Source: Clostridiales bacterium
Lineage (GTDB): Bacteria > Bacillota > Clostridia > Oscillospirales > Oscillospiraceae
NCBI GenBank assembly: GCA_022786995.1
Contig: JALFUW010000025.1
Location: 1-64,000 of the forward strand
Direction: 5' to 3'
Length of the DNA: 64,000 nucleotides
Positions 54,936 to 64,000 of this stretch are shown in pieces; within the stretch, counting starts at the first letter, position 1, and the number at the start of each line of letters is the position of its first letter. Both the position numbers and the translations under genes were made by a program. Below the pieces are notes generated by a model. The model was not told the origin of the DNA, did no database searches, and saw only the letters and a program-made list of their open reading frames with translations.

Positions 54936-55052
54936 GCCCACCACCTCCTGAAATTTCTATGCCGTGTCAGACATTTTTTGAACAATCACCAAAAAGAATG
55001 CATAGTATGACACGGATGAAAATCCGACTCTATCTTACAGGAGGTATGGAAA

Positions 55053-55499
55053 TTGGACAGACAAAATCAAGAACCGTCCTATCGTGACGGGCGCTTACCC
55101 GCTATGGCACCCCTGGCAAACCCCTATGTCCCCTTCCAGATGGAAAACCCGGCAAAGTATGAAGCAAAAAAGGGGCTTGTTCGGGGCACGCTGTTCCCGG
55201 GACTGGATCTTCCCTTTATGGGCATGGTCAACCAGTATGAGCTGCCGCCGTCCACACAGGCAGAGCTTCAGGCTCTGGGATTTGCAGTACAGGAACTGGC
55301 GCTTTATCTGGACACCCACCGGGAAGATAAGGAAGCATTGGCTCTGTACCGGGAATATCAGCAGATGTACGATAAATGCAGACAGCTGTATATCCGGGAG
55401 CATGGCCCCCTCAACCACGGAATGCCGTCGCAGTCCGATGGCTACAGCTGGCTGGATGACCCATGGCCCTGGGAATACTGCGGAAATAAGGAGGCGTAA
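55053..55499 (+). CDS. cotJAB: CotJA-CotJB fusion spore coat protein
   Basis: 148 aa in one frame, TTG start 8 nt after AGGAGG. Residues 1-70 match CotJA (LANPYVPFQMENPAKYEAKKGLVRGTLFPGLDLPF). Residues 70-148 match CotJB (LQALGFAVQELALYLDTHREDKEALALYREYQQMYDKCRQLYIREHGPLNHG, ending WLDDPWPWEY). In Bacillus these are two separate genes. It precedes cotJC, as in the usual cotJABC operon. CATAGTAT at about 55005 could be a sigma-E -10 box, weak evidence. Confidence 0.85.
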   Translation: MDRQNQEPSYRDGRLPAMAPLANPYVPFQMENPAKYEAKKGLVRGTLFPGLDLPFMGMVNQYELPPSTQAELQALGFAVQELALYLDTHREDKEALALYREYQQMYDKCRQLYIREHGPLNHGMPSQSDGYSWLDDPWPWEYCGNKEA

Positions 55500-55501
55500 T
55501 C

Positions 55502-55939
55502 ATGTTTGTATATGACAAGAAGCTGCAATACCCGGTAAAAATCGCGAACACAAACCCACGGCTGGCAGCGATTATCATTTCCCAGTATGGCGGTCCCGAC
55601 GGGGAGCTGGGCGCGTCCCTGCGGTACCTGTCCCAGCGCTATTCCATGCCCTTTGACGAACTGAAGGGCTTGCTGACGGACATCGGAACAGAAGAACTGG
55701 GGCACCTGGAGATGATCGGCGCCATTGTGCATCAGTTGACCCGAAATCTGAACGACAGTCAAATCAAGGATGCCGGTTTCGCTCCGTATTTTGTTGACCA
55801 TACCATCGGGGTTTATCCCACTGCCGCGTCCGGCAGTCCCTGGAACGCTGCCAGCATGGCGGTAAAGGGCGATCCTATGGCGGATCTGGTAGAAGATCTC
55901 GCGGCTGATGGTACGACTGTGCAAGAACAACGTGGCTGA
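55502..55939 (+). pseudogene. cotJC: CotJC (manganese-catalase-like coat protein), 3' end lost to mobile element
   Basis: 145 aa readable; the family is about 190 aa. The start FVYDKKLQYPVKIANTNPRLAAIIISQYGGPDGELGASLRYLSQRYSMP and GTEELGHLEMIGAIVHQLTRN near residue 62 (first ExxH metal site) are intact. The normal sequence ends near LVEDLAADGTT; the next residues VQEQRG then stop are foreign. The lost part should carry the second Glu/His pair of the dimanganese site (ATYE and REVVHFQRFGE in homologues), so the product is probably inactive unless the element excises. Good AAGGAGG start site. Confidence 0.85.
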
Positions 55940-56064
55940 AAACCCTTGAAAATACAGGATTTTTTGTTGTACGAGTTTTTTCATGCTACGTTTGTAAAAG
56001 GACAACCTACCTAAATTACAGATAGGACAAGCTATTTCACATACCAAAATTCCATATCGTACCT

Positions 56065-56095
56065 ATGGGCGTTCCGAAATGGACGCCCATTTTTC
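56065..56095 (+). terminator. Hairpin at the left end of the element
   Basis: ATGGGCGTTCC, GAAAT, GGACGCCCAT and TTTTT. It shields the element from cotJ transcription or attenuates its first gene. Confidence 0.75.
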
Positions 56096-56124
56096 ATGCC
56101 CAAAAGCAGAAAGGAGGCGACGCT

Positions 56125-57324
56125 ATGTACTTTACTTCCGGCCAAGACCGGGCCTTTGAACGGCTGATGCAGGAAAAGCCCGGTTTCGATCATTACGACG
56201 GCGGCGGGGCGAACGCGCCGGAGGATTGCGGTAGTTGCCGCTTCTATCGCCCGGATTGGAAATATCAATACTGCGTGTATGCAGAGTGTCCCTATCAGCC
56301 GGGCAAGCTGACCGCCCTTGCTGCGGTCAAATTCACAGTGAAAGGAGCTGACGACGATATGGCAGTATTCCGTGTGGAGAAGAACAAAGGCTATACGGTG
56401 ATGTCCAACCACCACCTGCGGAACAAAGCCCTGTCCCTGAAAGCCAAGGGCCTGCTGTCACAAATGCTGTCCTTGCCGGAGGATTGGGACTACACCCTAA
56501 AGGGCCTGTCCCTTATCAACCGGGAAAGCATTGACGCCATCAGGACAGCGGTGTGGGAGCTGGAACGGGCCGGATATATCAGACGGGAGCAGGGCCGTGA
56601 CGCAAAGGGCAAAATGGCCGATATGGTCTATACCATTTACGAGCAGCCGGTGTTGGATAAGCCGGTATTGGAAAACCCGGTGTTGGAAAATCCAACATCG
56701 GATAACCCGACATCGGATAATCCGGTGTCGGGAAATCCAACGCAATTAAATAAAGAGATACAAAGAACTAACTTACCAAGAAAAGAAAAATTAAATACAG
56801 ATAGACAAAGTACCGATTCCATTCCTTTCCCATCCCTGACCCCTGCCCCTGCGAGGAACGAGGCGGCGGCTGCACCGCCGGAACGGAAAGGAACAGGAAA
56901 GGATGCGGCAGTACAGATTTATCGGGAAATCCTTATGGAGAATATCGAGTATGACTATCTCATTCAGGATAGCCACATTGACCGGGAGCAGCTTGACGAG
57001 ATCGTTGACCTGATGCTGGAAACCGTCTGCACTTCCCGCAAGACCATCCGTATTGCCGGGGATGATTACCCCGCCGAGCTGGTGAAGTCCAAGTTTATGA
57101 AGCTGAACAGTGAACATATCCGCTTTGTCTTTGACTGCCTGCGGGAGAACACTACGAAAGTCCGCAACATCAAGCAGTATTTACGGGCTATGCTGTTCAA
57201 TGCCCCCAGCACCATCAGCAACTACTACACATCCCTTGTGGCGCACGATATGGCGCAGCCGGATTGGGGCAAGCCGAAATCCGGCCTGCCGGACTATTCC
57301 TGTTCGCCGGATGAAAGCCTGTGA
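56125..57324 (+). CDS. ICE replication initiator (RepA_N/DUF6017 type) with N-terminal cysteine-rich domain
   Basis: 399 aa from ATG 56125 (AAAGGAGGCGACGCT upstream). Residues 1-95 form a small domain, FTSGQDRAFERLMQEKPGFDHYDGGG then CGSCRFYRPDWKYQYCVYAECPYQPGK, with four or more cysteines. From residue 79 on, MAVFRVEKNKGYTVMSNHHLRNKALSLKAKGLLSQMLSLPEDWDYTLKGL is a winged-helix initiator start with its own AAAGGAG, so an internal start at 56359 is likely. A PVLEN/PTSDN repeat linker and a DnaD-like C-terminal domain follow. In my recollection of related elements these are two genes. Confidence 0.8.
   Translation: MYFTSGQDRAFERLMQEKPGFDHYDGGGANAPEDCGSCRFYRPDWKYQYCVYAECPYQPGKLTALAAVKFTVKGADDDMAVFRVEKNKGYTVMSNHHLRNKALSLKAKGLLSQMLSLPEDWDYTLKGLSLINRESIDAIRTAVWELERAGYIRREQGRDAKGKMADMVYTIYEQPVLDKPVLENPVLENPTSDNPTSDNPVSGNPTQLNKEIQRTNLPRKEKLNTDRQSTDSIPFPSLTPAPARNEAAAAPPERKGTGKDAAVQIYREILMENIEYDYLIQDSHIDREQLDEIVDLMLETVCTSRKTIRIAGDDYPAELVKSKFMKLNSEHIRFVFDCLRENTTKVRNIKQYLRAMLFNAPSTISNYYTSLVAHDMAQPDWGKPKSGLPDYSCSPDESL
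56647..56736 (+). repeat. Six 15-bp tandem repeats inside the initiator gene
   Basis: Codes for PVLDK PVLEN PVLEN PTSDN PTSDN PVSGN. Flexible linker between the winged-helix and C-terminal domains; copy number could vary by slippage. Confidence 0.85.
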
Positions 57325-57418: not shown

Positions 57419-57895
57419 TTGCAGGAAGAAGTCGATCAGAAAACCATTGCCCTGTCCATGAAAACGGGCAAGCTCACGGCCCAAGTGCTGCAAGCGGCGC
57501 TGAAAAAGTATTTGCAGCACCGGGCCAAGGGCAAGACCACGCTGCACCACGGCCAGCAGAGCCTAAAGCGGCTCAAAAAGCATGGGGCGGCCCTCTCCAA
57601 CATTGAGATCACCGAGGCCAACATAGGTGCGTTCAAGCCCTGTGCCAAGAAATACGGCGTGGATTTTGCTTTGCGAAAGGATAAGACCACCCAGCCGCCC
57701 CACTACGTTGTAATCTTCAAGTCCAAGGACGCGGACAATCTGGAACAGGCGTTCCGGGAGTTTACGGCAAAGACACTCTCCAAGGAGCAGCGGCCCTCCA
57801 TCCGTAAGGTGCTGTCTGCCATGAAGCAAAAGACAGCGGAGCAGACCAAGCAGAGGGCCAAGGAGAAAATCAGAGAAAGGGGGCTGGAACGGTGA
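57419..57895 (+). CDS. pcfB: PcfB family conjugation protein
   Basis: 158 aa, TTG start after AAGGAGGGA. DUF3801/PcfB signature: TGKLTAQVLQAALKKYLQHRAKGKTTLHHGQQSLKRLKKHGAALSNIEIT. Basic C-terminal tail. PcfB works with the coupling protein PcfC, encoded next with a 4-bp overlap. Confidence 0.88.
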   Translation: MQEEVDQKTIALSMKTGKLTAQVLQAALKKYLQHRAKGKTTLHHGQQSLKRLKKHGAALSNIEITEANIGAFKPCAKKYGVDFALRKDKTTQPPHYVVIFKSKDADNLEQAFREFTAKTLSKEQRPSIRKVLSAMKQKTAEQTKQRAKEKIRERGLER

Positions 57896-59700
57896 AGCCT
57901 GATATAAAAAAGCTGGTGATCCTCAACCTCCCATATCTAATTTTTGTGTACCTGTTCGGAAAATGCGGGCAGGCGTACCGGCTGGCTGCCGGTGCTGACC
58001 TGTCGGGAAAGCTCCTGCATCTTGCGGACGGCTTCACAGCGGCCTTTGCAAATCCCCTCCCCAGCCTGCACCTGTTTGATTTCTGCGTCGGCGTCGCCGG
58101 TGCTTTGATCGTGCGGCTGGTGGTGTACTGCAAGGGCAAGAACGCCAAGAAGTACCGCAAGGGCGTGGAGTACGGCAGCGCCCGTTGGGGAACGGCCAAG
58201 GATATTGCCCCCTACATCGACCCTAAGTTTGAAAACAATATTTTGCTGACCCAAACAGAACGGCTTACCATGACCGGGCGTCCCAAAGACCCCAAGACCG
58301 CCCGGAACAAAAACGTGCTGGTGATTGGCGGCAGCGGTTCAGGTAAGACACGATTTTTCGTGAAGCCCAACCTGATGCAATGCTTTCCGACCACGGACTA
58401 CCCAACCTCATTTGTGGTGACTGACCCGAAAGGCACCCTTATTCTGGAAACGGGAAAGATGTTTCAGCAGGCGGGCTACCGCATTAAAATCCTGAACACC
58501 ATCAACTTTTCCAAGTCCATGAAATACAATCCGTTCGTCTACATCCACTCGGAAAAGGACGTGCTAAAGCTGGTAAATACCCTGATTGCCAACACCAAGG
58601 GAGAGGGCGAAAAATCAGCAGAGGATTTTTGGGTCAAATCGGAACGGCTGTTTTACACGGCCCTGATCGGCTACATCTGGTATGAGGCCCCGGCAGAGGA
58701 AATGAACTTCACAACGCTGCTGGAAATGATAAATGCCAGTGAAGCCCGCGAGGACGACCCGGAGTTTCAAAGCCCCGTAGACCTGATGTTTGAACGGTTG
58801 GAGCAGAAAGACCCAGACCACTTTGCCGTGCGGCAGTATAAGAAATTTCTGCTTTCCGCTGGCAAAACCCGTTCCTCTATCCTGATAAGCTGCGGCGCAC
58901 GTTTGGCCCCCTTTGACATCCGGGAAGTGCGCGAACTGATGGAGGACGACGAAATGCAGCTGGACACCATCGGGGACGAAAAGACGGTACTGTTTCTCAT
59001 TATGAGCGACACGGACACCACTTTCAATTTCATTCTGGCAATGCTCCAAAGCCAGTTAATCAACTTACTTTGTGACCGGGCCGATGATAAGTACGGCGGA
59101 CGGCTGCCTGTCCATGTGCGGCTGATCTTAGACGAGTTTGCCAACATCGGCCAGATACCAAATTTTGATAAATTGATCGCCACCATCCGAAGCCGGGAAA
59201 TCTCGGCTTCTATTATTTTGCAGAGCCAGTCGCAGTTAAAGGCCATCTACAAGGATGCTGCCGAAATCATATCGGACAACTGCGATTCTGTGCTTTTCCT
59301 GAGTGGGCGCGGCAAAAATGCCAAGGAAATCTCCGATGCGCTGGGGAAAGAAACCATTGACAGTTTCAACACCAGCGAGAACCGGGGAAGCCAGACATCC
59401 CACGGACTGAACTACCAGAAGTTAGGAAAGGAGCTGATGAGCCAAGACGAAATCGCCGTGATGGACGGCGGCAAGTGTATCTTGCAGCTACGGGGTGTGC
59501 GCCCATTTTTATCGGAGAAATTCGATATTACCAAGCACCCACGCTACAAGTATCTTGCTGACGCCGACAAGAAAAACACCTTTGATGTGGACAGGTTTTT
59601 GACCGCTACGCGCCGGAAACGGCAGCAAGTGGTGACGCAGGACGAGATTTTCGACCTGTACGAAATTGACCTGTCGGACGAGAACGCCGCCGCTGAATAA
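57892..59700 (+). CDS. virD4: VirD4/TraG-type conjugative coupling protein
   Basis: 602 aa, GTG start. Two N-terminal helices; Walker A VIGGSGSGKTRFFVKPNL near residue 144; FVVTDPKGTLI; RLILDEFANIGQIPNFDKLIATIRSREISASIILQSQSQL. Links the relaxosome to the mating channel. The CD1115 family is the closest recalled type. Confidence 0.95.
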   Translation: MKPDIKKLVILNLPYLIFVYLFGKCGQAYRLAAGADLSGKLLHLADGFTAAFANPLPSLHLFDFCVGVAGALIVRLVVYCKGKNAKKYRKGVEYGSARWGTAKDIAPYIDPKFENNILLTQTERLTMTGRPKDPKTARNKNVLVIGGSGSGKTRFFVKPNLMQCFPTTDYPTSFVVTDPKGTLILETGKMFQQAGYRIKILNTINFSKSMKYNPFVYIHSEKDVLKLVNTLIANTKGEGEKSAEDFWVKSERLFYTALIGYIWYEAPAEEMNFTTLLEMINASEAREDDPEFQSPVDLMFERLEQKDPDHFAVRQYKKFLLSAGKTRSSILISCGARLAPFDIREVRELMEDDEMQLDTIGDEKTVLFLIMSDTDTTFNFILAMLQSQLINLLCDRADDKYGGRLPVHVRLILDEFANIGQIPNFDKLIATIRSREISASIILQSQSQLKAIYKDAAEIISDNCDSVLFLSGRGKNAKEISDALGKETIDSFNTSENRGSQTSHGLNYQKLGKELMSQDEIAVMDGGKCILQLRGVRPFLSEKFDITKHPRYKYLADADKKNTFDVDRFLTATRRKRQQVVTQDEIFDLYEIDLSDENAAAE

Positions 59701-59779: not shown

Positions 59780-59995
59780 ATGGAATTTTTCAACAGCGCA
59801 GTGAACACTTTGCAGACTATCGTGATTGGACTGGGCGGCGGCCTGTGCGTCTGGGGCGGCGTCAATCTTCTGGAGGGCTACGGCCAGGACAACCCCGGCG
59901 CTAAGAGCCAGGGCGTGAAGCAGCTTGTCGCTGGCGGCGGTGTGGCCCTGATCGGCGTGACCCTGATTCCCCTGCTGTCCGGCCTGCTGGGATAA
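59780..59995 (+). CDS. Maff2-family small membrane protein
   Basis: 71 aa from ATG 59780 (AGTGAGG upstream). FNSAVNTLQTIVIGLGGGLCVWGGVNLLEGYGQDNPGAKSQGVKQLVAGGGVALIGVTLIPLLSGLL: two helices around a polar loop, similar in layout to VirB2-type pilin or channel subunits. Constant member of this ICE type. Confidence 0.88.
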   Translation: MEFFNSAVNTLQTIVIGLGGGLCVWGGVNLLEGYGQDNPGAKSQGVKQLVAGGGVALIGVTLIPLLSGLLG

Positions 59996-60084: not shown

Positions 60085-60948
60085 GTGATTAGTGAAATCA
60101 TTGAAGAATGGATAAAAGGTATTCTGATCGACGGCATCACGGGCAACCTGTCCGGGCTGTTTGACAATGTAAATGCCAAAGTCGGAGAAATCGCCGCCGA
60201 TGTGGGAGCCACCCCGCAGGCGTGGAACAGCGGCATTTTCAATATGCTGCAAAACCTGTCCGAAACGGTGGTGCTGCCCATTGCAGCGGCCATCCTTGCC
60301 TGTGTCATGTGCATGGAGCTGATACAGATGATAACCGAGAAAAACAATATGCACGACTTTGACAGCTCTATGTTCTTCCGCTGGATTTTCAAGTCTGCGT
60401 TTGCCATTCTTATTGTCAGCAACACATGGAACATCGTCATGGGCATCTTTGACGCCACCCAAAACGTCGTCAACCAAAGCGCCGGTGTGATTATCGGGGA
60501 AACGTCCGTGGACTTTAACAGCCTGATACCTGACCTTGAAAGCCAGTTGGAGGCTATGAGCGTGGGCGGACTTCTGGGCCTGTGGTTCCAGACCCTTGTG
60601 GTGGGCCTTACCATGAACATCCTCGCCATCTGCATTTTCCTTGTGACCTACGGGCGTATGATTGAAATTTACGTCGTGACCTCGTTAGGGCCTATCCCCC
60701 TTGCCACCATGGGAAACAGCGAATGGCGCGGCATGGGCCAGAACTACTTGAAATCCCTGCTGGCGCTGGGCTTCCAAGCCTTTTTAATCATGGTTGTTGT
60801 CGGTATCTATGCGGTGCTGATACAGAACATTGCTTCCGCTTCTGACATATCCGGCGCAATCTGGGGCTGCATGGGCTACACAGTGCTTCTGTGCTTCTGC
60901 CTGTTCAAGACCGGCAGCATCAGCAAATCCGTGTTCTCGGCGCATTAA
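60085..60948 (+). CDS. VirB6/TrbL-like conjugal transfer membrane protein
   Basis: 287 aa, GTG start after AAAGGAGGTG. Extracytoplasmic N-terminus, then about six helices (VVLPIAAAILACVMCMELIQM; AFAILIVSNTWNIVMGIF; LWFQTLVVGLTMNILAICIFLVTYGRMIEIYVVTSLGPIPLATM; LLALGFQAFLIMVVVGIYAVLI; GYTVLLCFCLF). TrbL-type signature around the GPIPLAT loop. Part of the mating channel. Confidence 0.9.
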   Translation: MISEIIEEWIKGILIDGITGNLSGLFDNVNAKVGEIAADVGATPQAWNSGIFNMLQNLSETVVLPIAAAILACVMCMELIQMITEKNNMHDFDSSMFFRWIFKSAFAILIVSNTWNIVMGIFDATQNVVNQSAGVIIGETSVDFNSLIPDLESQLEAMSVGGLLGLWFQTLVVGLTMNILAICIFLVTYGRMIEIYVVTSLGPIPLATMGNSEWRGMGQNYLKSLLALGFQAFLIMVVVGIYAVLIQNIASASDISGAIWGCMGYTVLLCFCLFKTGSISKSVFSAH

Positions 60949-60965: not shown

Positions 60966-61388
60966 ATGGCTTATGTAACTGTCCCCAAGGACTTAACCCA
61001 TGTGAAATCCAAGGTTGTGTTTGGCCTTACCAAACGGCAACTGATCTGTTTTGGCGGGGCGCTGCTGGTAGGCGTCCCGTTATACTTTCTCACCCGTGAC
61101 TATCTCTCCACCAGTGCGGCGGCCCTGCTCATGGTATTTATCATGCTGCCGGGCTTTTTGCTTGCCATGTATGAGCGTCACGGCCAGCCCCTTGAAGTGG
61201 TGGTAATGCAGATGATTCAGTGCTGCTTCCTCCGTCCCAAGGAGCGCCCCTACCAGACCAACAACGCCTATGCCGCCCTTATGCGGCAGCATCAAATGGA
61301 ACAGGAGGTAAAGGCCATTGTCCAAAAAAGAAATCCCAAAAGAACCAGAAAAAACAAAGCTGACCCGCGCCCAGCGAAAAGAAATTGA
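60966..61388 (+). CDS. PrgI family conjugation protein
   Basis: 140 aa from ATG 60966 (AAAGGAGGTG upstream). VTVPKDLTHVKSKVVFGLTKRQLICFGGALLVGVPLYFL with two helices and a basic tail; VirB3-like role. The tail overlaps the virB4 start by 71 bp. Confidence 0.9.
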   Translation: MAYVTVPKDLTHVKSKVVFGLTKRQLICFGGALLVGVPLYFLTRDYLSTSAAALLMVFIMLPGFLLAMYERHGQPLEVVVMQMIQCCFLRPKERPYQTNNAYAALMRQHQMEQEVKAIVQKRNPKRTRKNKADPRPAKRN

Positions 61389-63717
61389 GGCGGTGATCCG
61401 CAAGTACAAGGGCGACGGCAAGCCCCATACGGCGCAGGCCACCATCCCCTATGAGGCCATGTACCCGGACGGCGTGTGCCGCCTGACGAAAAACACCTTT
61501 TCCAAGTGCATTGCCTTTGAGGACATCAGCTATCAGCTCGCCCAGCCGGACACCAAGACGGCCATCTTTGAACATCTTTGCGACCTCTACAACTATGTGG
61601 ACGCCTCTATCCACGTCCAGTTTTCGTTCCTGAACCGCAGGGTTGACCCGGTGCAGTACGCCAAGAGCTTTGAGATCGCGCCGCAGGGGGACGACTTCGA
61701 CGACATCCGGGCCGAGTACACCGGCATCCTGCAAAAGCAGCTTGCAAACGGCAACAACGGCATCGTCAAGACCAAGTACCTGACGTTCACCATTGAGGCC
61801 GATAGCCCGAAATCCGCAAGGGCCAGGCTGAACCGCATCGGCCTTGACCTTTTAGGTTATTTCAAGACGATGGGAGCTGTGGCCCATGTGATGAACGGCA
61901 AAGAACGGCTTGCGGTGCTGCATGGGGTGTTCCACCCGGACGGGGAGCTGTTCAATTTTGACTGGAAGTGGATGACCCCCTCCGGCCTTTCCACCAAGGA
62001 CTTTATCGCCCCGTCCTCCCTGTGCTTCGGCAATGCAAAAACCTTTGGCATGGGCGGCAAATACGGCGCGGTAAGTTTTTTGCAAATCCTCGCCCCGGAA
62101 CTGTCGGATGAAATGCTGGCGGATTTTCTCAATACGGACAGCGGCATTTTGGTGAACCTCCATGTGCAGGCCATCGACCAGACGGAGGCCATTAAGACCA
62201 TCAAGCGCAAGATCACCGACCTTGACGCCATGAAGATACAGGAGCAGAAAAAGGCCGTCCGCAGCGGCTACGATATGGACATACTGCCCAGCGACCTTGC
62301 CACCTATGGGGAGGACGCCAAAAAGCTGCTGACCAAATTGCAGACCCGCAACGAGCGTCTTTTCATGCTGACGTTTCTTGTGCTGAACGTGGCCGATACC
62401 AAACAGAAGTTGAGCAACGATGTGTTTCAGGCCGCCGGTGTGGCACAGAAATACAACTGTTCCCTTGTCCGTCTGGACTACCAGCAGGAACAGGGCCTTG
62501 TGAGCAGCCTGCCGCTGGGCGTCAACCAGATCAAAATTCAGCGGGGCCTTACCACTTCCAGCGTGGCTGTGTTCGTGCCGTTTGTGACGCAGGAGCTTTT
62601 TCAGGGCGGCGCAGCCATGTATTACGGCGTCAACGCCAAGTCCCACAACATGATTATGCTGGACAGGAAACAGGCCCGGTGTCCCAACGGTTTGAAATTA
62701 GGCACCCCCGGCAGCGGCAAGTCCATGAGCTGTAAATCCGAGATCGTCAGTGTGTTCTTAACGACGCCTGACGATATTTTTATCTCCGACCCGGAGGCTG
62801 AATACTATCCGCTGGTGAAGCGGCTTCATGGACAGGTTATCCGGCTGTCCCCCACAAGCAAGGACTATGTGAATCCGCTGGACATTAACCTGAACTATTC
62901 CGAGGACGATAACCCGCTGGCCCTGAAATCCGACTTTGTGCTGTCGTTCTGCGAGCTGGTCATGGGCGGCAAGAACGGGCTGGAACCCATTGAAAAGACA
63001 GTGATTGACCGGGCCGTGCGGGTGATCTACCGTCCCTATCTGGCAGACCCCCGCCCGGAAAATATGCCGATTCTGTCCGACCTCCACAAAGCGTTGTTAG
63101 ATCAGCACGTCCCGGAGGCTGACCGTGTGGCGCAGGCCCTTGACCTGTATGTGTCCGGCTCCCTGAATGTCTTTAACCACCGTACCAACGTGGACATCGG
63201 CAACCGGCTTGTGGCCTTTGACATCAAGGAGCTGGGCAAGCAGCTCAAAAAGCTGGGGATGCTCATTGTCCAAGACCAGATTTGGGGTCGCGTCACCGCC
63301 AACCGCAGCCAGGGCAAGGCCACATGGTACTTTGCCGACGAGTTCCACTTGCTTCTGAAAGAGGAACAGACGGCGGCCTATTCCGCTGAAATCTGGAAGC
63401 GTTTCAGGAAATGGGGCGGTATCCCCACCGGCGCGACGCAGAACGTGAAAGACCTGCTTTCCTCCCCGGAGATCGAAAACATTCTGGAAAACAGCGATTT
63501 TATTACGCTGCTCAATCAGGCGTCCGGGGACAGAAAAATTCTTGCGGAACGGCTCAACCTGTCCGCAGACCAGCAGAAGTACATCGACAATTCCGAACCC
63601 GGCGAGGGCCTTTTGATCTTTGAAAATGTGGTGCTACCCTTTACCAACCCGATCCCCCACAACACCCAGCTCTACAAGATTATGACGACCCGGTTAAGCG
63701 AGGTGGTAAGCCAATGA
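61318..63717 (+). CDS. virB4: VirB4-like conjugation ATPase
   Basis: 799 aa, TTG start 8 nt after GGAGGT. Walker A LGTPGSGKSMSCKSEIV near residue 463, FISDPEAEYYPLV, WYFADEFHLLLKEEQTAAYSAEIWKRFRKWGGIPTGATQNVKDLL. Drives assembly and substrate transfer of the mating machine. Confidence 0.95.
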   Translation: MSKKEIPKEPEKTKLTRAQRKEIEAVIRKYKGDGKPHTAQATIPYEAMYPDGVCRLTKNTFSKCIAFEDISYQLAQPDTKTAIFEHLCDLYNYVDASIHVQFSFLNRRVDPVQYAKSFEIAPQGDDFDDIRAEYTGILQKQLANGNNGIVKTKYLTFTIEADSPKSARARLNRIGLDLLGYFKTMGAVAHVMNGKERLAVLHGVFHPDGELFNFDWKWMTPSGLSTKDFIAPSSLCFGNAKTFGMGGKYGAVSFLQILAPELSDEMLADFLNTDSGILVNLHVQAIDQTEAIKTIKRKITDLDAMKIQEQKKAVRSGYDMDILPSDLATYGEDAKKLLTKLQTRNERLFMLTFLVLNVADTKQKLSNDVFQAAGVAQKYNCSLVRLDYQQEQGLVSSLPLGVNQIKIQRGLTTSSVAVFVPFVTQELFQGGAAMYYGVNAKSHNMIMLDRKQARCPNGLKLGTPGSGKSMSCKSEIVSVFLTTPDDIFISDPEAEYYPLVKRLHGQVIRLSPTSKDYVNPLDINLNYSEDDNPLALKSDFVLSFCELVMGGKNGLEPIEKTVIDRAVRVIYRPYLADPRPENMPILSDLHKALLDQHVPEADRVAQALDLYVSGSLNVFNHRTNVDIGNRLVAFDIKELGKQLKKLGMLIVQDQIWGRVTANRSQGKATWYFADEFHLLLKEEQTAAYSAEIWKRFRKWGGIPTGATQNVKDLLSSPEIENILENSDFITLLNQASGDRKILAERLNLSADQQKYIDNSEPGEGLLIFENVVLPFTNPIPHNTQLYKIMTTRLSEVVSQ

Positions 63718-63748: not shown

Positions 63749-64000
63749 TTGAAAGAGCTGAAAGCAAAGCCAAAGGTGACACAGGCCATGACCCGCGATG
63801 GCCTGACGCTGGAAAATCAGGCCACCGGCGAGGTTGAGAACATTTCCAGCCGGGAGGCCGAACAGGACTATACCCCGGAGGCTGGCGGCACAGCGGAAAA
63901 GCTGCTGGAACGGGCCGACGATGCCCATGACCGGCACAAGGCTAAAAAGTCCGCAAAGCAGGCAGCGGCCACCACAGCCGAGGGGGACGCCGCCCTGCAC
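63749..64000 (+). CDS. ICE gene after virB4, 5' part only (probably CD1108-type wall hydrolase)
   Basis: 84 codons visible to the window edge; not in the ORF track. TTG 63749 follows AAAGGAGGTGACGGCCA. MKELKAKPKVTQAMTRDGLTLENQATGEVENISSREAEQDYTPE, then an Ala/Lys-rich stretch. In elements of this type the next gene is a peptidoglycan hydrolase with a similar charged N-terminus; only position and style support this. Confidence 0.6.
   Translation, partial: MKELKAKPKVTQAMTRDGLTLENQATGEVENISSREAEQDYTPEAGGTAEKLLERADDAHDRHKAKKSAKQAAATTAEGDAALH

Follow-up and report, generated by a model that had tools for sequence, protein, structure and literature searches.

In C. difficile, the large serine recombinase (LSR) CD1231 of the skin element is driven by sigma-A and present in all cells, and the small directionality factor CD1234, which is controlled by sigma-E and SpoIIID, limits excision to the mother cell (PMC5025042). 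SPbeta of B. subtilis resides in spsM, a spore-surface gene from which an LSR removes it during sporulation (SprA, SprB; PMC4191935). Other sporulation genes that carry such elements are gerE (gin), spoVFB (vfbin), spoVR (vrin) and yabG (yin) (PMC5595907, PMC10747680, PMC4191935). No description of cotJC, the mother-cell gene of a spore-coat catalase, as the target of a removable intervening element was found in the literature searched.

The locus described here lies in a stretch of 64,000 nucleotides (the window) from a Clostridiales bacterium of the Oscillospiraceae, on the contig that we call C88; the host genome encodes SpoIVA and Spo0A, and the host genes to the left of the break include radA, cwlD and cotJA/cotJB. 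The cotJ operon is preceded by a putative sigma-K-like promoter (AC-N17-CATAGTATG, 54982..55009, + strand, as are all features of the window given below). Here cotJA and cotJB are fused into a single ORF of 148 aa (55053..55499; PF11007 and PF12652, both above the cut-off), and the same fusion is present in relatives of the window. The 5' piece of cotJC (55502..55908) comprises codons 1-135 and the dinucleotide GA, and matches positions 1-150 of the profile PF05067 (E 7e-37). The host frame runs as far as this GA at 55907-55908 and then continues into element DNA (ADGTTVQEQRG) up to a stop at 55939. The first-pass annotation, which had reported an interrupted cotJC, is borne out by a profile match that ends at position 150, where the frame leaves the family; its figure of ~45 lost C-terminal residues was too low, the actual number being ~62, which are the residues carried by the 3' piece. 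It was right that half of the metal site is removed, as the Glu of AAEQKAR and the His of REREIVHFQRF both fall in the missing piece. These are residues that, from the known Mn-catalase family, we presume to be metal ligands of CotJC.

The DNA beyond the break had been called a Tn1549-type element, and the conjugation and replication gene set of that family is indeed present. The left part of the element begins at 55909, fills the window to 64000 and runs on to the end of the contig (C88:68619). It encodes a DUF6017 replication-initiator-like protein of the Tn1549 type (56065..57324; PF19481, E 3e-71), a DUF3801 (PcfB-type) protein (57419..57895; PF12687), a VirD4/TraG coupling protein (57892..59700; PF02534, PF12696), a Maff2 protein (59780..59995; PF12750), a TrbL/VirB6-like channel protein (60085..60948; PF19478), a PrgI protein (60966..61388; PF12666) and a VirB4-like ATPase with a TraG P-loop domain (61318..63717; PF19044), followed by the start of the next conjugation-module ORF (63749..64000), which extends past the window. 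Genes for DUF4315, CD1107-like and topoisomerase III proteins follow further along C88. The right part of the element lies on a second contig, at about C1:72616-81085, and the middle part between C88 and C1 is missing from the assembly; a relaxase gene would be located there, and a tyrosine integrase and excisionase module could be. This right part carries genes of a two-component system and an ABC transporter (G000:C1:75000-81085), which possibly form a peptide-antibiotic resistance cassette. At the right end there is no integrase of the Tn1549 type but an LSR of 519 aa, with Resolvase, Recombinase, Zn-ribbon and DUF4368 domains, whose gene lies directly before the 3' piece of cotJC.

This 3' piece was located by a profile search of the whole assembly, at G000:C1:72447-72602(-), and covers PF05067 positions 147-198. 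A gene-loss outcome had been tied beforehand either to the absence of a 3' fragment beyond the right end of the element or to an intact second copy elsewhere; the fragment is there, and the assembly holds exactly two PF05067 matches, the window's 5' piece and the 3' piece on C1, with no second copy of cotJC. The contig ends at C88 68619 and C1 81085 are both within element DNA. Both pieces have the same nearest relatives, the genome G323 (97.8% for the 5' piece, 98.5% for the 3' piece) followed by G331, and in tetranucleotide composition the host parts of C88 and C1 correlate at 0.944, against 0.949 between halves of one contig. As relatives and composition agree in this way, C88 and C1 are the two ends of one Tn1549-like conjugative element.

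A short direct repeat that would restore cotJC had been predicted, and one was found, though the shared core is just GA within GCnGCnGA. The proposed crossover core is the GA at 55907..55908, inside the Glu codon of AAEQKAR; attL and attR have it in common in the aligned junctions of many loci, and same-genus species show the empty site. In the window's element the left junction reads GCGGCT-GA-TGGTACG and the right one GATTGCAGCA-GA-GCAAAAAGCG. The left element arm of attL (TGGTACGACTGTGCAAGAACAAC, 55909..55931) repeats the right arm GTTGTTCTTATATGATTGCAGCA imperfectly and in inverted form, and the arms GTTGTTCTTATATGATTGCA and TGCAATCATATAAGAACAAC are near-perfect inverted copies flanking GA; with such arms, and once the core had changed, the element could sit either way round. 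When the flanks are joined at GA, the result is an uninterrupted CotJC of 198 aa containing VEDLAAEQKARVTYDN, in which the Glu codon of AAEQKAR is restored and which is close to the CotJC of sister species. At the DNA level the joined sequence agrees, normal divergence aside, with the unoccupied site in the sister genome G331, and an intact cotJC at the empty site is found in other species of the genus as well.

The recombinase belongs to a family with strong specificity for this site. Relatives of the window's LSR were collected from named genomes of the Lachnospiraceae and Oscillospiraceae (80 loci, 81-97% identity), and in 72 of the 80 a piece of cotJC lies directly behind the LSR gene, always broken at the same codon (site 3). 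It is the 3' piece in 59 of these loci and the reversed 5' piece in the other 13, and comparison of attL and attR showed that the site-3 junctions are all of one form. Complementary cotJC pieces are present in nearly all of 50 genomes with such an LSR. Four loci (L080, L124, L137 and L144) have close LSR relatives without cotJC behind them, and in L080 and L124 the usual right arm is joined to other DNA, so that secondary insertion sites exist. Phage records contained no LSR more than 60% identical to that of the window.

Interruption of cotJC is also recurrent. In a sample of 201 genomes that spans the family, cotJC is broken in 36, which represent 28 genera, and the breaks recur at three places in the PF05067 profile, near positions 30, 63 and 150. 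In the window's genus cotJC is broken in roughly half of the species that have it, by our count and with some doubt over a few pieces that lie at contig ends, and an additional break occurs there near codon 51. Because the same codon is broken in tens of genera, the split is not a matter of chance. LSRs of other, divergent types are found where the gene is broken near codons 30, 51 and 62, and the shared junction sequences of these sites lie in YGGPDGE, PFDE and IGTEELGH; three of the four insertion sites coincide with conserved motifs, in which metal-ligand glutamates are probably included. Genes in three pieces are found, for example, in G151, G024, G112, G204, G234 and G237, and Candidatus Evtepia faecigallinarum (G226) has cotJC in four. 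Where neighbouring pieces share a contig, 56 of 60 pairs by our count retain the order and orientation that reassembly by deletion requires; the exceptions, with a piece inverted or out of order through rearrangement or assembly error, are G144:C1, G201:C1, G215:C11 and G229:C122. Carriers that have been cultured include Anaerotignum lactatifermentans DSM 14214, Roseburia faecis M72, Parablautia intestinalis, where the interval is as short as 7.2 kb, and Clostridium fessum; in all four the element is at site 3.

The intervening DNA varies widely in content. Several elements at codon 62 (L202, at G331:C73:60000-65600, L057 and L058) hold host-type genes and apparently have the LSR as their sole mobility gene, and the cargo at this codon includes glucose-6-phosphate isomerase (pgi) in G331 and thymidine phosphorylase (deoA) in G098 and G167. 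Others are tiny, ~2.2-2.8 kb with a recombinase and almost nothing else (L204 in G318:C22, L194 in G300:C96 and L056 in G024:C53). In L097 and L086 the cotJC site is occupied by tandem elements that meet at an attP-like junction, as in accretion, and the second LSR copy of L097 is degenerate. The attR of the phi027 prophage in C. difficile R20291 lies directly upstream of the CotJC-like catalase gene CDR20291_1465 (PMC11222575), which is possibly a case of related targeting.

The fate of the broken gene was judged from its sequence evolution, for which synonymous and non-synonymous changes were counted by the Nei-Gojobori method. All 16 of the site-3 3' pieces fetched from the window's genus are open. 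Compared with their nearest neighbours, these pieces have a dN/dS of 0.070-0.077, and the corresponding region in 33 intact genes gives 0.062. As such values may reflect selection before insertion, pairs of species that share an insertion weigh more. In the 3' piece of G053 and G199 there are 26 synonymous and 0 non-synonymous changes; the two genomes align colinearly, at 87% identity, along 6.4 kb that take in the element from end to end, and this insertion is therefore not recent. The corresponding counts are 28 and 5 for G132 and G193, and 8 and 0 for the loci L151 and L154. Together the three pairs have 62 synonymous and 5 non-synonymous changes over ~214 synonymous and ~695 non-synonymous sites, where neutral decay would give about 3 non-synonymous changes for each synonymous one. 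In genes split into three or four, every piece is still open. Thus, the split cotJC is under purifying selection while it is interrupted, which means that it still yields a selected product, and reassembly is the simplest way to read this. The window's own insertion may be recent, as no DNA match to the region of its LSR exists in G323, the closest sister that is split at site 3.

The arrangement of genes and promoters around the LSR suggests how reassembly might be confined to sporulation. At site 3 the LSR gene is served by a sigma-A-like promoter with an operator-like palindrome, and directly upstream of the gene lies a conserved ORF of ~50 aa with the consensus ICkSVFKSGEnTTsKxqFTxKWIELINqlEKnKg. 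No Pfam or NCBIfam family matched this protein over the cut-off, and its PHROG matches were weak and insignificant. It is probably the recombination directionality factor. About 50-66 bases before its start, ATA-N17-CATA is found in 48 of 59 loci, where shuffled sequences lead one to expect 0.7, a count that is inflated by shared ancestry, though the spacer between the boxes varies among lineages. A spacing of 17 accounts for these 48 loci, and every other spacing for at most 4. A mapped sigma-E promoter of C. difficile reads ATA-N16-CATATATA, with 16-18 bp being the classical spacing, and sigma-K promoters of this species use AC and CATATAAT, cotCB and cotD being sigma-K targets (PMC3789822). 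In our set, 20 of 36 cotJ operons are preceded by AC-N17-CATA, 17 being the spacing at which the matches peak. We infer from these resemblances that the promoter of the small ORF is of the sigma-E type and that of cotJ of the sigma-K type; the host spoIVA promoter, taken as a sigma-E control, contains no exact ATA-N17-CATA. A second family of small ORFs (LALKEQGTLTEMQFKYA-like) accompanies some codon-62 elements (L202 2939-3160, L077 3882-4220, L171 1005-1232), and the one in G331 lies directly upstream of the LSR gene and is a candidate directionality factor for the codon-62 recombinases.

We consider it likely, on the sequence evidence, that this conjugative element with its own LSR undergoes programmed excision in the mother cell, by which cotJC is rebuilt. 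The LSR, made from its sigma-A-like promoter, would integrate the Tn1549-like element at its dedicated site inside cotJC. The ~50-aa directionality factor would be made from its sigma-E-like promoter, and so be confined to the mother cell during sporulation; together with the LSR it would bring about precise excision at the GA core. Excision at sigma-E time would restore cotJC before its sigma-K-like promoter fires, with expression at sigma-K time, and the genome of the forespore would keep the element. That excision is specific to the mother cell is likewise the likely reading of these promoters. A search for a rejoined attP returned none in 401 assemblies of the family and none in viral contigs, an absence expected if circles are confined to terminal mother cells and equally if there is no excision at all. 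Three candidates for an excised circle were rejected: OY725852, a circular 23.9-kb “plasmid” with a 72% identical LSR, carries a 3' piece of cotJC; the apparent attP of L086 lies ~10 kb from the 3' cotJC piece on the same contig and is a junction between tandem elements; and the attP-like junction of L097 is a similar tandem case.

The first-pass annotation had left open whether the insertion is a switch or simple gene loss. In the latter case cotJC would be a dispensable safe harbour, permanently inactivated, and its pieces the remnants of recent insertions. This finds support in the fast turnover of insertions within the window's genus, in the want of an excised circle in viral contigs or the 401 family genomes, and in C. 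difficile, where the homologues of cotJC are dispensable for coat formation: mutants in cotCB and cotD lose catalase activity and have no clear coat defect (PMC11222575). It follows from these mutants that reconstitution of cotJC need not be essential, and if the gene is equally dispensable here, a small benefit to the cell may explain the rapid turnover. Gene loss nevertheless sits badly with orphan 3' pieces that stay open and, in the shared-insertion pairs, have remained under purifying selection while interrupted, with an insertion as old as that of G053 and G199, and with genes split three or four times in which no piece has closed; we therefore hold it to be unlikely, and the excision switch is the alternative that the pieces support.

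Polymorphism within species could in principle conserve the pieces without any programmed excision, through selection on intact alleles and homologous exchange, and insertions are indeed present in one and absent from another of two close species. It leaves unexplained, however, why insertions are shared at a dS of ~0.4-0.5 with the element diverging in parallel, and why a sigma-E-like promoter is conserved before the small ORF, and we think it quite improbable. A split catalase, whose two pieces are expressed separately and then assemble, would suit the intact operon promoter of the 5' pieces and the open frame of the 3' pieces, but the 3' piece lacks its own start signal, and at all site-3 loci the codon that is broken specifies a conserved Glu, presumably a metal ligand; we give it very little credence. 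Hardly any weight attaches, finally, to a binning artefact by which C1 would belong to another organism: contamination of the assembly stands at 5.4% and its cotJC halves are on two contigs, yet these halves agree in their two nearest genomes and in composition, as set out above, and in many other genomes both halves are on one contig.

Programmed excision at the window's locus may be one instance of something broader. With rather less confidence than for the window itself, we favour the view that removable DNA of the Lachnospiraceae and Oscillospiraceae has in cotJC a general docking gene, used by several independent LSR families with att sites at or near its best-conserved motifs, YGGPDGE, IGTEELGH and AAEQKAR, and divided into two to four pieces with a recombinase for each interval; reassembly in the mother cell would be programmed and sometimes multi-step, and for at least one LSR family would be driven by a small directionality factor under sigma-E. 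If this is true, domesticated intervals with pgi or deoA would be lost by the dying mother cell. The repeated splitting of this one coat gene suggests that many gut spore-formers delete DNA during sporulation, and that mobile DNA, conjugative elements included, has more than once taken to settling in a gene that only a dying cell needs. The cultured carriers make the claim directly testable, and the loci offer a new family of LSRs paired with candidate directionality factors.

Comparison with known systems shows where the cotJC elements stand. Of the proteins in the PDB, TnpX of Tn4451 matches the window's LSR best, and TndX of Tn5397 matches it at ~32%, the Resolvase, Recombinase, Zn-ribbon and DUF4368 domains being common to all three; YokA (SprA) of SPbeta is also among the closest solved LSR structures. 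GA is the crossover core of both Tn4451 and Tn5397. In contrast to TnpX and TndX, the cotJC LSR is strongly specific for a single site in cotJC. With elements of the Tn1549 type the window's element has in common VirD4, VirB4-like, TrbL, PrgI, Maff2, DUF6017, DUF4315, CD1107 and topoisomerase III proteins, but Tn1549 itself uses a tyrosine integrase, whereas here a cotJC-type LSR occupies the right end.

Among gene-intervening elements, skin in C. difficile sigK has a sigma-A-driven LSR inside the element and a separate small protein under sigma-E, and a mother-cell gene is precisely rebuilt there; the cotJC elements have the same layout with putative promoters of these types, and their removal would rebuild cotJC, whose frame is restored by the joining of the flanks. 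The differences are that the target is cotJC and not sigK and that the cotJC elements span a range from conjugative to tiny cargo elements; the ~50-aa protein may be likened to CD1234 in gene layout and putative promoter type. SPbeta likewise sits in a spore-surface gene, but it is a phage, not a conjugative element, and it belongs to another host group; cotJC has several sites within one gene. Nor is cotJC among the described targets of gin, vfbin, vrin and yin, for which the reports that we found give one element per gene. The known removable elements of sporulation genes are a handful, mostly derived from prophages, whereas cotJC is used by several unrelated recombinases on conjugative as well as minimal elements. 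What is found at the window's locus nonetheless resembles skin and SPbeta: an element in a sporulation gene of which both pieces are present, the frame can be restored and purifying selection persists, with a predicted LSR adjoining attR whose family stands beside cotJC in 72 of 80 loci. The reading that suits the window's element best is that of a conjugative element which belongs with the gene-intervening elements skin and SPbeta, in a target, cotJC, that the literature searched does not describe.
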